In this document: positions 6,995 to 36,078 of the stretch, in pieces
Layout of the letters: the number at the start of each line of letters is the position of its first letter
How positions within the stretch are numbered: position 1 is the stretch's first letter
NCBI GenBank assembly: GCA_014381555.1
Contig: JACNLO010000048.1
Coordinates: 1-59,694 of the forward strand
Length of the DNA stretch: 59,694 nucleotides
Direction of reading: 5' to 3'
DNA from: Planctomycetota bacterium
Lineage (GTDB): Bacteria; Planctomycetota; Phycisphaerae; Phycisphaerales; SM1A02
The notes under the pieces: generated by a model
The model's database searches: none
What the model was told of the DNA's origin: nothing
What the model saw: only the letters and a program-made list of their open reading frames with translations
Position numbers and translations under genes: made by a program

Positions 6995-7969
6995 TTATTG
7001 GGAATCGTTGTTGCTATCTTTCAATTGAGACGCAATCCCATTTTCTGAACGCTTTGGTGGCTTGTGGTAAAGATGCCCTGCATTTGGGTTTTTTTCGTCA
7101 TACGCAAATGCTTCACGATTCCGAATAAAATCCTTTACATACCTTGTTGGGATTGCAAAGTTTAATGACTCGGCAGCTGTAATTCCCATATTTGTAATAC
7201 CAACAACTTCACCTTGACTATTAAAGAGAGGACCACCAGAATTACCAGGGTTAATTGCTGCATCCGTTTGGATGTAGGTCAACCCGTCAAAACTTCTTTG
7301 CTTTGTAGAAATCACTCCTTGGCTCATTGATCTTTCTAGACCAAGAGGATTTCCAATTGCAAAAACTGTTTCTCCTACTTCAATCTTTTCCGCTTCTTCC
7401 AGAACTGAGAAGTCAAATGGTTCATCATCTGGATGCGAAAGCTGCAATAATGCCAAATCCAGATGATTATTGACCGCAATAATAACTACATCTTCAATGG
7501 TAGTTCGTTTCAAAGTTCCATCTTCCTGTGGAATCCAGACAGTAGCACGAAGATCCGTTTCGCCTTGTATCACATGAGCATTTGTGATGGCGTACCCATC
7601 TTCGTTGAGCAAAACGCCTGAACCAAGCCCTCCTGGGGTTGAAACTTTAATGACCGATGCACCAACTCTTTTTGCCTGTTCTCTTGGGCTACGCTCTGGC
7701 AATTGCACAGCCGTTCGAAAAAGACTCGAAGTATCAAGGTCTGAAGAATCATCGATCGGATCAGCAGCGTCTACTTCCTTCACTTGGGACATTTCGACTT
7801 CGATAACTTCGGAGCCGATATCGACCCACAACTTGTTATCTGTTTGTTTAATGATTTTTCCATGAACTTCACCTCCACTATTGAGGCGGACAATGTCAGC
7901 TGAGGCGTCGCTTAAGGCACAACACAGAAACAAAAAGGTCAGCAGTTTTATTTTTACCTGTTTAATCAT
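6995..7969 (-). CDS. Periplasmic trypsin-like serine protease (HtrA-like, no PDZ)
   Basis: 324 residues. Signal peptide ('LLTFLFLCCALSDASA'), then a small N-terminal beta domain ('VRLNSGGEVHGKIIKQ', residues ~25-70) that resembles the short 'substrate-sensing' domain of other planctomycete exoproteins. The S1C protease domain follows with His in 'YAITNAHVIQG', Asp in 'NNHLDLALLQL' and Ser in 'AAINPGNSGGPLFN'. The triad is complete. Canonical DegP/DegS have one or two PDZ domains after the protease; here only ~50 residues of polar tail follow, so substrate recognition must differ. Likely role: envelope protein quality control or processing. Confidence 0.88.
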   Translation of the reverse strand: MIKQVKIKLLTFLFLCCALSDASADIVRLNSGGEVHGKIIKQTDNKLWVDIGSEVIEVEMSQVKEVDAADPIDDSSDLDTSSLFRTAVQLPERSPREQAKRVGASVIKVSTPGGLGSGVLLNEDGYAITNAHVIQGETDLRATVWIPQEDGTLKRTTIEDVVIIAVNNHLDLALLQLSHPDDEPFDFSVLEEAEKIEVGETVFAIGNPLGLERSMSQGVISTKQRSFDGLTYIQTDAAINPGNSGGPLFNSQGEVVGITNMGITAAESLNFAIPTRYVKDFIRNREAFAYDEKNPNAGHLYHKPPKRSENGIASQLKDSNNDSQ

Positions 7970-30966: not shown

Positions 30967-32004
30967 ATGAGCACCCCTCAATCACAAACAAATACACGAT
31001 TATCAGCAGAACATTATTTCATCGCCCAAGCACTTGAGGCAGAAATGAAAGCTATTGAGGCTGTCTTGCTGCGAATTGAGTCCTCTACATCCCAGGCAAC
31101 ACAGTGGTCCCATGCCATCGATATCCTTGAAAAGTGCAAAGGACATGCTGTCTTTAGCGGAATGGGAAAGTCAGGACTAATTGGTGCAAAACTTTCAGCA
31201 ACATTTTCTAGCATCGGACAGCCCTCACATGTAGTCCATCCTGCGGAAGCGGTTCATGGTGACCTTGGCTCAATTCGCCGAGATGATGTTGTCATTTTAA
31301 TGAGTTACTCTGGCACAACTGAAGAAGTAGTAAACCTTGCTGCAATTCTACGAACAGACGGAATCCCCTGCATCGGAATCTCAAAGGAAGACAATACTCC
31401 CCTTGCAAAATTATGCGATGCACATGTCGCAATTGGTTCCATCAGTGAAGCATGTCCATTGAATCTCGCTCCCACAGCCTCAACAACAGCGACCCTCGCT
31501 ATCGGAGACGCACTAGGGCTCGCTCTTTCAAGGCGAAGAAATTTTACTGCAGATGACTTTCACAAACACCACCCTGGTGGAATGCTCGGAATAGGACTCA
31601 GAGCAATTACTGAAATTATTCGATTTAAAGTGGGCGACAATCTCACTGCAGTGAGCGAACAATTAAGTGTCGGTGAAGCGTTGCAACTTGCTCGGCCACA
31701 AGAGGGGCAGAGGAGAGCCGGCGCAATTCTTCTCGTCAACGAAGATGGTGTTCTGACAGGAATTTTTACTGATGGAGACCTTCGTCGCCTTGTAATAGAC
31801 CAAGACAATCCGATGAATCAAATCATCGGTGATGTCGCAACAAAAAACCCTCGCCGACTACATGCAACTGCCCTTGTTAGAGATGCACAACAACTTGTAA
31901 CTGAGTATAGAGTAGACGAGATTCCAGTAGTCAATGAAGAAAATATGCCATTAGGGCTTATTGATGTCCAAGATTTAATCGCTATGAAAGTAGTATCGGA
32001 GTAA
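30967..32004 (+). CDS. kdsD: Arabinose-5-phosphate isomerase (SIS + CBS)
   Basis: 345 residues. Makes the KdsA substrate A5P from ribulose-5-P. SIS domain: 'GKSGLIGAKLSATFSSIGQP', 'VHPAEAVHGDLGSIR', 'SYSGTTEEVVNL' and 'KHHPGGMLG'. Then two CBS motifs: 'AGAILLVNEDGVLTGIFTDG' and 'TEYRVDEIPVVNEENMPLGL'. The complete KdsD architecture. First gene of kdsD-hslV-like-kdsC-lptC-nuoC; the next start is 6 nt beyond its stop. Confidence 0.95.
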   Translation: MSTPQSQTNTRLSAEHYFIAQALEAEMKAIEAVLLRIESSTSQATQWSHAIDILEKCKGHAVFSGMGKSGLIGAKLSATFSSIGQPSHVVHPAEAVHGDLGSIRRDDVVILMSYSGTTEEVVNLAAILRTDGIPCIGISKEDNTPLAKLCDAHVAIGSISEACPLNLAPTASTTATLAIGDALGLALSRRRNFTADDFHKHHPGGMLGIGLRAITEIIRFKVGDNLTAVSEQLSVGEALQLARPQEGQRRAGAILLVNEDGVLTGIFTDGDLRRLVIDQDNPMNQIIGDVATKNPRRLHATALVRDAQQLVTEYRVDEIPVVNEENMPLGLIDVQDLIAMKVVSE

Positions 32005-32010
32005 TACACA

Positions 32011-32580
32011 ATGTCTGTTATTGTCGCAATTCGCAAAGATAATCGCATCGTCATGGCAGCAGACACCCTTACAACGTTCGGCGATTCAGAACATATGCCA
32101 CAGGAAAATGCTAGAACTGCAAAGGTTGGACGCATTGGCGATTCCCTAATTGGAGGAGCGGGCTGGGCTGTGTATGACGACATACTGAATGATTTCTTAT
32201 CTACTCGACCAACCCCAGATCTTTCAAGTTCACGAAACATCTTCACTTTCTTCCTCGATTTTTGGAGAGCCCTCCATGAACACTACACTTTTGTAAATGA
32301 TCAAGCTGCAACTACAAACACACCGTTTGGCGACCTTGATTCAACATTTTTGATTGCAAATTCTGGTGGAATTTTTACAGTAGCATCTGACCTTGGGGTA
32401 ACGCCATTGAACAAATATTACGCAATCGGATCTGGCGGTGAATATGCCATTGGAGTTCTGTATACGCTTTATGACCGAACTGATGACATAACTTCAATAG
32501 CAACTGATGCAGTTAATGCTGCTATTGCAATGAATCTCCAGTGTGGCGGAACGGTTGACGTTCTTCAGCTAACATCATGA
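32011..32580 (+). CDS. HslV-like Ntn-hydrolase (peptidase T1 family), Ser-2 nucleophile
   Basis: 189 residues of the proteasome-like fold. N-terminus 'MSVIVAIRKDNRIVMAADT' aligns with HslV 'TTIVAVRR.G.VVIAGDG', with Ser at position 2 as would-be nucleophile instead of Thr. Also seen: 'GGAGWAVYDDILNDFL' (HslV 'GGTADAFTLFE') and 'YYAIGSGGEYAIGVLYTLYD' (HslV 'IGSGG.YA..AA.AL'). No hslU unfoldase adjoins it. It sits between kdsD and kdsC, 6 nt after the first and overlapping the second by ATGA, so it is firmly part of the Kdo operon. Whether it is active without HslU, or is another Ntn hydrolase, is not known. Confidence 0.8.
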   Translation: MSVIVAIRKDNRIVMAADTLTTFGDSEHMPQENARTAKVGRIGDSLIGGAGWAVYDDILNDFLSTRPTPDLSSSRNIFTFFLDFWRALHEHYTFVNDQAATTNTPFGDLDSTFLIANSGGIFTVASDLGVTPLNKYYAIGSGGEYAIGVLYTLYDRTDDITSIATDAVNAAIAMNLQCGGTVDVLQLTS

Positions 32581-33107
32581 CGGCTGCCCCATACATCAAA
32601 GTTTTAGTTCTCGATGTTGATGGTGTTTTGACAGATGGAAAAATCGCTCTTGCAGGACAACCACATGACGAAACAAAATATTTTCATGTACATGACGGAT
32701 TAGGAATTTCGCTATGGCAAAAAGCAGGATTTCACACAATCATCATTTCCGGAAGAAATGCGCAATGCGTAGAACTACGAGCAGATGAATTGCAAATCCA
32801 GCATGTCAAACAGGGAAGCATTGATAAGGTTGCAGACATTAACCTATTTTTACAACAACTTGGTTACTCTCCAAAAGAGGCCTGTTTTGTAGGCGACGAT
32901 TTAGGAGACATTCCTGTTATGCAATATGTTGGGTATTCCATTGCAGTTCAAGACGCTGCCGATGAAGTTAAAACCATCGCAGATTGGACTACAAAAAGAA
33001 TGGGTGGATGTGGAGCAGTACGCGATGCAATTGAACATCTCATGAGAGCAAACGGATCATGGGACAAAACTGTATCAATTTTATCGATGGAACACGCCAA
33101 ACAATGA
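32577..33107 (+). CDS. kdsC: Kdo-8-phosphate phosphatase
   Basis: 176 residues, HAD superfamily type C0/C1. Motif I 'VLVLDVDGVLTDGKI' (both Asp), motif II 'TIIISGRNAQCVELRADEL', and motif III/IV 'CFVGDDLGDIPVMQYVG'. Removes phosphate from Kdo-8-P. ATGA overlap with the HslV-like gene; 13 bp before the LptC/OstA gene. Confidence 0.95.
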   Translation: MTAAPYIKVLVLDVDGVLTDGKIALAGQPHDETKYFHVHDGLGISLWQKAGFHTIIISGRNAQCVELRADELQIQHVKQGSIDKVADINLFLQQLGYSPKEACFVGDDLGDIPVMQYVGYSIAVQDAADEVKTIADWTTKRMGGCGAVRDAIEHLMRANGSWDKTVSILSMEHAKQ

Positions 33108-33120
33108 ATTGGTTCATTGC

Positions 33121-36078
33121 ATGAGTACCAACGCAAATCAATCTAGACCTCAAAACAGAAGTACCAAACGCCTAGCTTGGATTGTATTTGGGATAAGTTC
33201 TGCATGCTGTGCACTACTTCTCACAGTTTTATTTACTCTGAACGATGATAACAAAACGAGCAGCGAGTCTACTCAAAATGAAGAAATCATAGATCTTCTC
33301 TCTGCACCTCGGCAAGAAACAGGTTCAGCTTCTCTCTCTCCTTCGAACATTGGTATAGAACTTCCACTCGGAGGCTGGGTTCAACAAACTGACACCGCAG
33401 GTAATTTATTACAACAATACCGATGTAAATCACTTGACCCTGATCCAGTTGATAAAAGTGCTGGATGGATTGAGATGAAAAATCTTGAAGTAGAAATGTA
33501 CTTGGGTGATGACAAACTTGTACGAATCTCAGGAGACACTGCGATTGCAAACGCTCCAAACAGAGTACTAGAATCAGGTGAGATAATTGGAAACGTTGAA
33601 GTCAAAATGTTTGAAGTTGAAACTCTAAGCAAATCGGTTTTCCCAGAGCCAATCATGGTACTTAAAACCCATAATGCGACCTTTGACAATTTTATTGGGG
33701 AAATTATTTGCCCAAACGATGTCAGAATAACTTCGACATCACAAACACTTGCTGGTCGTAAATTATCTTTACGATTTAACGACAAGGAAGAACGAATCGA
33801 GTATCTACATCTTGAAGAACTAGATTACATTGATTTTCTTCCCACCCCTTCTCCTAACACTTCAATGCCCACGCCTATCGCACAAAGGCAACCTCAGGTC
33901 TCACAAATCGAGCCGCGACACATCTCTCACTCACATGATGTTAAAGCTGCAGCTGTTGGAAGTGACCTTGATTATTACATCGTCACTCTAGCTGAAAATG
34001 TCAAAATACTCCAAGGACCGCAAGGCAATGGGCGGCTCGCACGCGGCAAAACTTTAACCATCGCCTTCTCAAATAAAAGCGAATCATATTCAAAACAGAA
34101 TTCGAATAACAACGAAAGGCTTGATCCAATGCCATCGCACTTTTTTGCTCAATCAATTCCACTATCCCTTGTAGTAACTTCTTTTGCTGCGATTGACGCC
34201 CCTCTTGATCAACAAAGAACACGCGTTACATGCGATGGCGGGCTCACTATGATTCCACTTGATGACCCCTCACTCATCCCATCGACACCAACTGACACAC
34301 GAATAGAACTTTTTGCCTTCGATGATGCTCCTGCACAACTGATCGACACAAGCCAAAACATGGAAGCATTCGCCTCATTGCTTCGCTATGAACTCCAACA
34401 GGACAGGAGCGATCTTTTTGGAGAACCTGCTTCACTTCTTATTGGTGACAAATTTACTTCTGCAAATCACTTATGGTTGGCAAGAGAAGACGGGGTTGGC
34501 GGAGTAACTGGAGAAGGCACCATGGTCTCAACTACTCCACAATCAACTGGTACTTCCTTACAATGGAGCGACAACGTTGATTTTACCTTTGATTCATCAC
34601 AAGACGCCGAGGATGGATCACTAAAGGAAGTAATTTGCCACGGAGATGTTGTCCTTTCTGACCAAGGGAACTTTGTGCAATGCGAAACACTAACTGTCAC
34701 ATTTTCTAAAAACCCAGATGGAACTACTTCACCATCACTCGCGATAGCAAATGAAAATGTAAAAGCAATTACTGACGATCAAACAATGTGGGCTAACGAA
34801 ATGCAAGTTTCTTTTAGCGAAAAGCAGCAAGCAACTAAAGATAACCCCGAAGACGAATCCATGTTTGGTGGCTCAAAGGCAGACAAGATGAAGGCCATCG
34901 GCAACGTTCAAATTTTACTTCGTGATGGCGGGCGAGCTTTCTGCGAAAAACTTGACGGCAACATCGCTCAAGACACTGCAATGCTCAACGGAAACGTGGT
35001 TATCGCGTACGAGCGAATGTTGATGAATCGCGGCGAGTCTGCCTCGTTAATTCTTGACAGAGCAACTGGAAAGGGTAAATGGGCTGGGTCTGGGCAAGCG
35101 CTATTCTTAGATTCGCCAATCGATGTTTCCCAAGACCATCGCATCGAAAGGCCAATATTAGATTCACCCACAGCACCAAATGAAAAGAAAACCGTTTCAA
35201 TGCGAGCAAACTGGGACAAAGAAATGAACTTAGACCAAAAGTTTAACGATGGCGCGGGGGCTATTGATTTAAAAGGCGATGTGGATGTTCAATCACAACG
35301 CACAAAGTTTGAGCGAAGTCAAATGACAGGTGACGATTTGCGTTTTGAATTCGCCAACTCAGCCAAATCTACTGCTAGTAACAAGAAAGAACTCGAAAAA
35401 GTCATTGCGCGTTCTGACGCTCAAATAGAACATCGAACTTGGGATGATCTTTATCCTAATTTGCCACCTGTTGTGTACTACATTGGGGGGAACCATCTTG
35501 AATTTAATCTTTTAACTCAAGAAACCCTAGCTGTAGGTAATGGCGAACTCGTTTTACGCGACCCAAGAGAAGCCAATAACTCTTTGCACCAATCAGCACT
35601 CGCAGGAAGAGGGACCACTCGCTTTACTTGGGACGACCAACTTGTCTCAACACAACTCAAGGGAGATCAATACCAACTTGAGATGACTGGTAATGTTGAG
35701 ATGATTCATAAAGGAGTTGATGGAAGTATTGGGATGTTGACCTCAGACAAAATCGAAGCCATTGCAATTGATCCAAACAAAGTGCAAACTGACGAAAGTG
35801 GCAGTAATCAACTTACACTTCGCGGCTTAGATCTACAAAAACTCATTGCAAATGGAAGTGTTTACGTTGCAACTGAGACTAAACGTGTCGATTGCGACAA
35901 ATTCAACTACGACCTTATCTCTGGCTTTGCAACACTCAGTGCATTAGAGAATCGAAGCGTTGCAATTATTACAGGGGATTCACCTTACCCCGTAAGAGCT
36001 TCAAGCATCGTTTGGAATATGGACCCAACAATTGATACCATTACGATTCGAGACCTCCAAGGCACCAGCAATGACTGA
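33121..36078 (+). CDS. Very large LptC/OstA-like LPS-transport protein
   Basis: 985 residues. One N-terminal transmembrane anchor ('LAWIVFGISSACCALLLTVL'), then an LptC-like region ('VKMFEVETLSKSVFPEPIMV') and repeated OstA/LptA-like beta-jellyroll strands throughout, for example 'ASGDTAIANAP'-type 'ISGDTAIANAPNRVLESG', 'EVICHGDVVLSDQGNFVQCE', 'KAIGNVQILLRDGGRAFCEK' and 'LKGDQYQLEMTGNVEMIHKG'. LptC and LptA are usually ~190 and ~180 residues; here one chain could span the periplasm. ATG 33121 chosen over an in-frame GTG at 33109. Neighbours kdsD/kdsC support an LPS role. Confidence 0.82.
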   Translation: MSTNANQSRPQNRSTKRLAWIVFGISSACCALLLTVLFTLNDDNKTSSESTQNEEIIDLLSAPRQETGSASLSPSNIGIELPLGGWVQQTDTAGNLLQQYRCKSLDPDPVDKSAGWIEMKNLEVEMYLGDDKLVRISGDTAIANAPNRVLESGEIIGNVEVKMFEVETLSKSVFPEPIMVLKTHNATFDNFIGEIICPNDVRITSTSQTLAGRKLSLRFNDKEERIEYLHLEELDYIDFLPTPSPNTSMPTPIAQRQPQVSQIEPRHISHSHDVKAAAVGSDLDYYIVTLAENVKILQGPQGNGRLARGKTLTIAFSNKSESYSKQNSNNNERLDPMPSHFFAQSIPLSLVVTSFAAIDAPLDQQRTRVTCDGGLTMIPLDDPSLIPSTPTDTRIELFAFDDAPAQLIDTSQNMEAFASLLRYELQQDRSDLFGEPASLLIGDKFTSANHLWLAREDGVGGVTGEGTMVSTTPQSTGTSLQWSDNVDFTFDSSQDAEDGSLKEVICHGDVVLSDQGNFVQCETLTVTFSKNPDGTTSPSLAIANENVKAITDDQTMWANEMQVSFSEKQQATKDNPEDESMFGGSKADKMKAIGNVQILLRDGGRAFCEKLDGNIAQDTAMLNGNVVIAYERMLMNRGESASLILDRATGKGKWAGSGQALFLDSPIDVSQDHRIERPILDSPTAPNEKKTVSMRANWDKEMNLDQKFNDGAGAIDLKGDVDVQSQRTKFERSQMTGDDLRFEFANSAKSTASNKKELEKVIARSDAQIEHRTWDDLYPNLPPVVYYIGGNHLEFNLLTQETLAVGNGELVLRDPREANNSLHQSALAGRGTTRFTWDDQLVSTQLKGDQYQLEMTGNVEMIHKGVDGSIGMLTSDKIEAIAIDPNKVQTDESGSNQLTLRGLDLQKLIANGSVYVATETKRVDCDKFNYDLISGFATLSALENRSVAIITGDSPYPVRASSIVWNMDPTIDTITIRDLQGTSND

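Follow-up and report, generated by a model that had tools for sequence, protein, structure and literature searches.

A probable BPH-type proteasome homologue with a predicted N-terminal serine, encoded between kdsD and kdsC in a planctomycete

The bph gene and its operon

The window, that is, the whole stretch of DNA that was analysed, comprises 59,694 nt of contig JACNLO010000048.1 (assembly GCA_014381555.1; Planctomycetota, Phycisphaerae, Phycisphaerales, SM1A02), read on the forward strand. The gene of interest, here termed bph, lies between two genes of Kdo synthesis:

30967–32004, plus strand: kdsD/kpsF, arabinose-5-phosphate isomerase, directly 5' of bph (TIGR00393, 2.4e-71)
32011–32580, plus strand: bph, probable BPH-type proteasome homologue, Ser-1 form, 189 aa (phmmer, profile and Pfam searches)
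32577–33107, plus strand: kdsC, Kdo-8-phosphate phosphatase, directly 3' of bph (TIGR01670, 3e-43)
33109–36078, plus strand: LptC-like protein, 989 aa, next after kdsC, likely start at ATG 33121 (TIGR04409, 1.4e-4, weak)

The bph product begins MSVIVAIRKDNRIVMAADTL, with Ser as residue 2, GGAG at residues 48–51 and GSGG at residues 140–143. The reading frame is not a chance event, since ten further genome contigs carry it at 78–90% identity, and other genera of the window's family at 47–56%. The initial annotation had described kdsD and kdsC as flanking genes, with a 6 nt spacing and an ATGA junction, and the coordinates agree: the kdsD stop codon ends at 32004, leaving 6 nt to the bph ATG at 32011, and bph and kdsC overlap in the ATGA at 32577–32580. 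Elsewhere in the genus, the kdsD-bph gap is 2–9 nt, and bph and kdsC range from overlapping to being 23 nt apart, as judged from match ends. Such similarly short distances across the genus fit a single translationally coupled operon. A promoter and terminator scan detected no internal signal above chance, and kdsD, bph and kdsC are probably co-transcribed.

The LptC-like gene is also kept 3' of kdsC in the loci L021–L029 and L031–L033. Its product is 989 aa long, compared to the 180 positions of the LptC model, which it matches weakly and at residues 121–227 only; relatives reach up to 1176 aa. It is possibly a fused LptC/LptA-type bridge protein.

Family assignment and active site

In the initial annotation, the bph product was described as an HslV-like Ntn hydrolase. 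It is indeed an Ntn hydrolase of the proteasome fold (Pfam PF00227, Proteasome: 27.4 bits, cut-off 22.4) with weak similarity to HslV, but its family is BPH-like rather than HslV. Against all solved structures, phmmer placed 5ovu (3e-22) and 5ovs (4.9e-22) first, with near full-length alignments, and an HslV third (6.5e-4). The comparison with HslV, Anbu and BPH families that the initial annotation had suggested came out the same way: a profile of ten relatives matched 5ovs at 1.7e-29 and 5ovu at 5e-25, and the best HslV at 3.6e-6. The BPH structures are thus ahead of HslV by some 18–23 orders of magnitude in E-value. They represent the enzymes of Thiobacillus denitrificans (Td-BPH; 5OVS/5OVT) and Cupriavidus metallidurans (Cm-BPH; 5OVU) (Fuchs et al., PMC5777263). 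Anbu and the 20S proteasome beta subunit belong to the same superfamily, but their matches are weak and partial; Anbu has a long C-terminal coiled-coil helix H5, whereas the window protein ends at residue 189, just past the last strand in the BPH alignment.

The residues that are relevant for activity, and the pore loop, are located as follows:

32014–32016, plus strand: Ser-2 codon (Ser-1 of the mature protein), predicted N-terminal nucleophile, aligned with Td-BPH Thr-1
32062–32064, plus strand: Asp-18, equivalent to active-site Asp-17, invariant in the family alignment
32122–32124, plus strand: Lys-38, equivalent to Td-BPH Lys-37 and proteasome Lys-33, invariant in 28/28 aligned sequences
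32152–32163, plus strand: GGAG, residues 48–51; Gly-51, equivalent to oxyanion-hole Gly-50, is invariant in 28/28 sequences
32293–32346, plus strand: pore loop V95–T112, VNDQAATTNTPFGDLDST, long and without an acidic run (alignments; PMC5777263)
32428–32439, plus strand: GSGG, residues 140–143, with Ser-141 equivalent to Td-BPH Ser-139 (structure alignment)

The five active-site positions map one to one on Thr-1, Asp-17, Lys-37, Gly-50 and Ser-139, the active site of Td-BPH (PMC5777263), although the pairing of Ser-2 with Thr-1 required an extension of the structure alignment by two residues. Ser-2, Asp-18, Lys-38 and Gly-51 are invariant within the window's family, and Ser-141 differs in a few relatives. 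The serine at position 2 had been pointed out before, and is the predicted nucleophile. It directly follows Met-1, as in BPHs, with no propeptide in between and with loss of Met-1 predicted. An insertion near residues 22–35, which had also been remarked upon, is present, but it is not anomalous: it puts the catalytic lysine at mature position 37 instead of 33, which is precisely the spacing of Td-BPH (PMC5777263).

The protein shares with the crystallised BPHs the near full-length similarity, the active-site residues and their spacing, the lack of a propeptide, the long pore loop and the absence of HslU. It differs from them by Ser-1 in place of Thr-1, and by its location in a Kdo operon, whereas published BPH genes are found near argG, pyruvate dehydrogenase or hsp33 (PMC5777263). 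According to the same work, BPHs occur without a partner AAA+ protein, and every BPH outside Betaproteobacteria has an N-terminal Ser (PMC5777263). The serine, the lysine spacing and the absence of HslU are therefore not anomalies, being known features of BPHs. We consider it likely that the bph product is a BPH-type proteasome homologue of the Ser form that works as an ATP-independent peptidase ring. Provisionally, it is thus a known kind of protein, with a variant form and a gene context that are new.

The similarity to HslV, which includes the fold, the catalytic residues and the GSGG segment, raises the question of whether the protein could be a true HslV that has lost HslU, or that has paired with another AAA+ protein such as ClpX. 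HslV models do match, at 28.8 bits (TIGR03692) and 28.5 bits (NF003964), and ClpX is present in the genome. However, the cut-offs of these models (157.75 and 137 bits, respectively) are missed by far, the BPH structures score better by the margin given above, and four additional residues ahead of the catalytic lysine and a long pore loop set the protein apart from HslV and align it with BPHs. The genome, which is 97.7% complete, contains no recognizable HslU, although a copy that has diverged far, or that lies in the missing 2% of the genome, could escape the search. Its best hslU match, a 476-aa ORF, stays below the hslU cut-off (215.6 bits, cut-off 362.45) and passes that of TIGR00382 (572.6 bits), and is therefore ClpX. 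No HslU gene is found in the kdsD-bph-kdsC operon, and none was found elsewhere that could pair with bph, in agreement with the initial annotation. At the default threshold, PF00227 missed even bph itself; when the search of the whole genome was repeated at E 10, matches were in bph alone, and no HslV, Anbu or alpha subunit was detected, with the same proviso as for HslU. An HslV with a missing HslU is thus largely refuted, and an orphan HslV of either kind appears highly improbable.

Identity with PPH was also considered. The phage "peptidase HslV family" phrog_1040, which is probably PPH, matches the profile at 7.5e-22, but the alignment leaves out about 45 residues of the window protein. 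Phage tblastn matches are weak (29% identical), and plasmids and viral contigs gave no matches. PPH lacks helix H2 (PMC8665760), whereas the H1 and H2 region is present in the window protein, and together with the weakness of the phage matches this led us to reject the identity with phage PPH. An AlphaFold monomer model (10 sequences) was poor, with a mean pLDDT of 43 and low-confidence helices at residues 52–64 and 74–91; none of the claims made here draws on it, and the fold and the ring are predicted from homology.

The pore loop of published BPHs is long and very acidic (PMC5777263). In the window protein, it spans about 18 residues between H2 and S7 and is thus of BPH length, but only 3/18 residues are acidic and they form no run, compared to 6/17 acidic residues in the canonical-type planctomycete BPHs L014 and L015. 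In place of the acidic loop of Td-BPH and Cm-BPH, the window protein has VNDQ...PFGDLDS, and the pattern VN[DE][QN]...PF.D.D, with 3–4 acidic residues and no acidic run, is common to each of the 18 Kdo-linked relatives that the tree includes. The split between the two loop types is fully supported, but a number of long branches leave the details of the tree unsure. L014 is much nearer to the crystallised BPHs (5ovs, 5.1e-45). In view of the loop without an acidic run, the window protein is treated as a member of a BPH-like variant branch.

The nucleophile and the loop type vary independently: L014 combines Ser-1 with the acidic loop, L013 Thr-1 with the VN-type loop, and L015 Thr-1 with the acidic loop. 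Ser-2 is found in all examined members of the window's family; Thr takes its place in two loci from other parts of the phylum, L013 and L015 (Planctomycetota genomes G100 and G196). The latter two contradict the published statement on Ser-1 outside Betaproteobacteria, but they come from draft genomes, and contamination is possible.

Linkage with kdsD and kdsC across the family

The conservation of gene order, which the initial annotation had suggested to check, was examined in 151 genomes of the window's family, which were searched separately for BPH, kdsD and kdsC before positions were compared. BPH is present in 42/151 genomes, from 13/45 genera. kdsD lies directly 5' of bph on the same strand, at a distance of at most 421 nt, in 36 of the 42. 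Two others have wider gaps, of 1.2 and 3.2 kb, and in G470 the gap contains a transposase-like ORF. kdsC lies 3' of bph within 753 nt in 30. At least one of the two genes is beside bph in all 42 genomes and 13 genera, a count that has to be read with the relatedness of the genomes in mind, which are not independent tests, and with contig ends hiding some neighbours. One genome of the window's genus (G406) has no match to bph, kdsD or kdsC; since the contig is interrupted within scpA, a gap in the assembly seems a better explanation than a loss. Among the open-access papers searched, none connects a proteasome homologue to kdsD/kdsC or to Kdo, and the kds context and the loop type are provisionally regarded as novel.

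The linkage might be no more than a matter of ancestry. The window protein would then be the same ATP-independent peptidase ring as proposed above, with a housekeeping role and no function in Kdo or LPS synthesis, placed between kdsD and kdsC by one ancestral event, in a position that gives suitable expression. We give this reading about an even chance. BPHs are found in varied operons of other bacteria (PMC5777263), and 12 BPH loci of the phylum outside the window's family have no kds gene within the 10.7–15 kb fetched; with BPHs in unrelated operons elsewhere, the kds genes around bph may be a trace of descent and not a sign of function. Moreover, one branch of the tree (support 69/78) sets the Kdo-linked genes apart from the others, so that one placement event suffices. 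In genus g296, bph survives even though a REP-associated-transposase-like ORF (L032, 720–1268; identified by eye), with repeats around it, lies between kdsD and bph.

Against mere ancestry, linkage to kdsD and/or kdsC in 42/42 genomes contrasts with the rarity of kdsD-kdsC adjacency in BPH-less relatives, seen in just 10 of 92 such genomes with kdsD (6/31 genera). The linkage also takes two partial forms. In G416 (g291), bph adjoins kdsC, and kdsD is on another contig. In g294, kdsD and bph are adjacent in 9/9 genomes (including G419, G445, G467 and G512; L074), none of which has a kdsC at E 1e-8; in the four that were checked with the KdsC model, what is left are weak and partial matches that fall well short of the cut-off. 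Another phosphatase may carry out the KdsC step in g294. The g294 case can be read both ways, since it also weighs against the explanation favoured here.

BPH and kdsD distances are strongly correlated (Mantel r 0.91, with 0/2000 permutations as high), and their trees agree in 11/22 splits, among them those of all genera with more than one sample. This is the pattern expected if the two genes were inherited together, without repeated recent transfer. In a comparison of ten genomes of the window's genus, BPH, kdsD and kdsC have mean protein identities of 0.86, 0.77 and 0.63 and dN values of 0.104, 0.186 and 0.320, respectively, with synonymous change saturated in all three. Between genera, BPH identity (0.46–0.59) is about equal to or lower than that of kdsD (0.49–0.69), so the strong constraint on BPH is a feature of the window's genus. 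BPH is absent from 32/45 genera of the family, nearly all of which have kdsD and kdsC, and Kdo synthesis therefore does not need BPH.

Possible mode of action and role

The sequence itself shows the homology, the active-site residues, the operon layout, the conserved linkage and the lack of HslU and HslV; the mode of action that follows is a proposal built on these. A Met ahead of Ser is normally removed, and with no propeptide present, methionine aminopeptidase would expose Ser-1. Subunits would form a double ring of seven with inward-facing active sites, as in the crystallised BPHs with their 14 subunits, in which Ser-1, together with Asp-17, Lys-37 and Gly-50 (mature numbering), would cleave polypeptides entering past the long pore loop. 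No unfoldase such as HslU would be needed by such an ATP-independent peptidase ring. Td-BPH and Cm-BPH are 14-subunit double rings that bind epoxomicin in a proteasome-like manner and have no known unfoldase (PMC5777263).

The crystallised enzymes did not cleave any of the many substrates tried, peptides and casein included (PMC5777263). Another Ntn activity, for example that of an amide hydrolase, a connectase-like ligase or a Kdo/LPS modification step, would account for this inertness and for the location of the gene between two sugar-phosphate enzymes. Connectase provides an example of a proteasome-like protein with changed chemistry (PMC8665760). Yet the active site of the window protein is that of an intact proteasome, the alignment contains no connectase-type insertion, and epoxomicin binding by Td-BPH and Cm-BPH follows the proteasome mode. 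The pathway also leaves little room for an additional enzyme, as KdsA is the only step needed between KdsD and KdsC. We regard a non-peptidase activity as unlikely, and return to the peptidase.

If bph shares a transcript and translational coupling with kdsD and kdsC, the amount of BPH would follow Kdo supply. Both lpxC and a kdsB-like gene are present in the genome, the latter at 147.1 bits, slightly short of the cut-off of 155.2, which makes Kdo-containing LPS likely. Envelope quality control, proposed in the initial annotation, is still hypothetical. The strong, clade-wide kdsD/kdsC linkage speaks for it, as does E. coli, where overproduced HslV degrades LpxC (PMC7730581); the inertness of the crystallised BPHs and the absence of BPH from most genera of the family speak against it. 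The best guess at a physiological role, held with clearly less than even confidence, is that the ring would break down unfolded or surplus protein locally, in connection with LPS and outer-membrane synthesis. A more specific proposal, which we rate as rather doubtful, is that the branch with Ser-1 and the VNDQ/PFGDLDS loop has been recruited in a planctomycete family as a protease that needs no ATP and adjusts Kdo/LPS synthesis by removing a pathway enzyme, for example LpxC, KdsD, KdsC or an Lpt protein. There would then be a parallel with E. coli and the ability of its HslV to degrade LpxC.

Structures of BPHs are known, but no substrate, partner or role, and tuning of LPS synthesis, if true, would be the first physiological role of a BPH. 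In a 2021 survey of 22 further proteasome-like homologues, the gene context of those proteins hinted at no function (PMC8665760). Here, a context kept in 42/42 genomes, and an in-genus constraint above that of the sugar enzymes, narrow the search for a role to outer-membrane synthesis, and the kds linkage makes the connection between an orphan protease and the outer membrane testable. As a separate observation, a 324-aa ORF on the minus strand of the window (6995–7969), which does not reach the cut-off of any named Deg family, encodes an HtrA/Deg-like serine protease catalytic domain.
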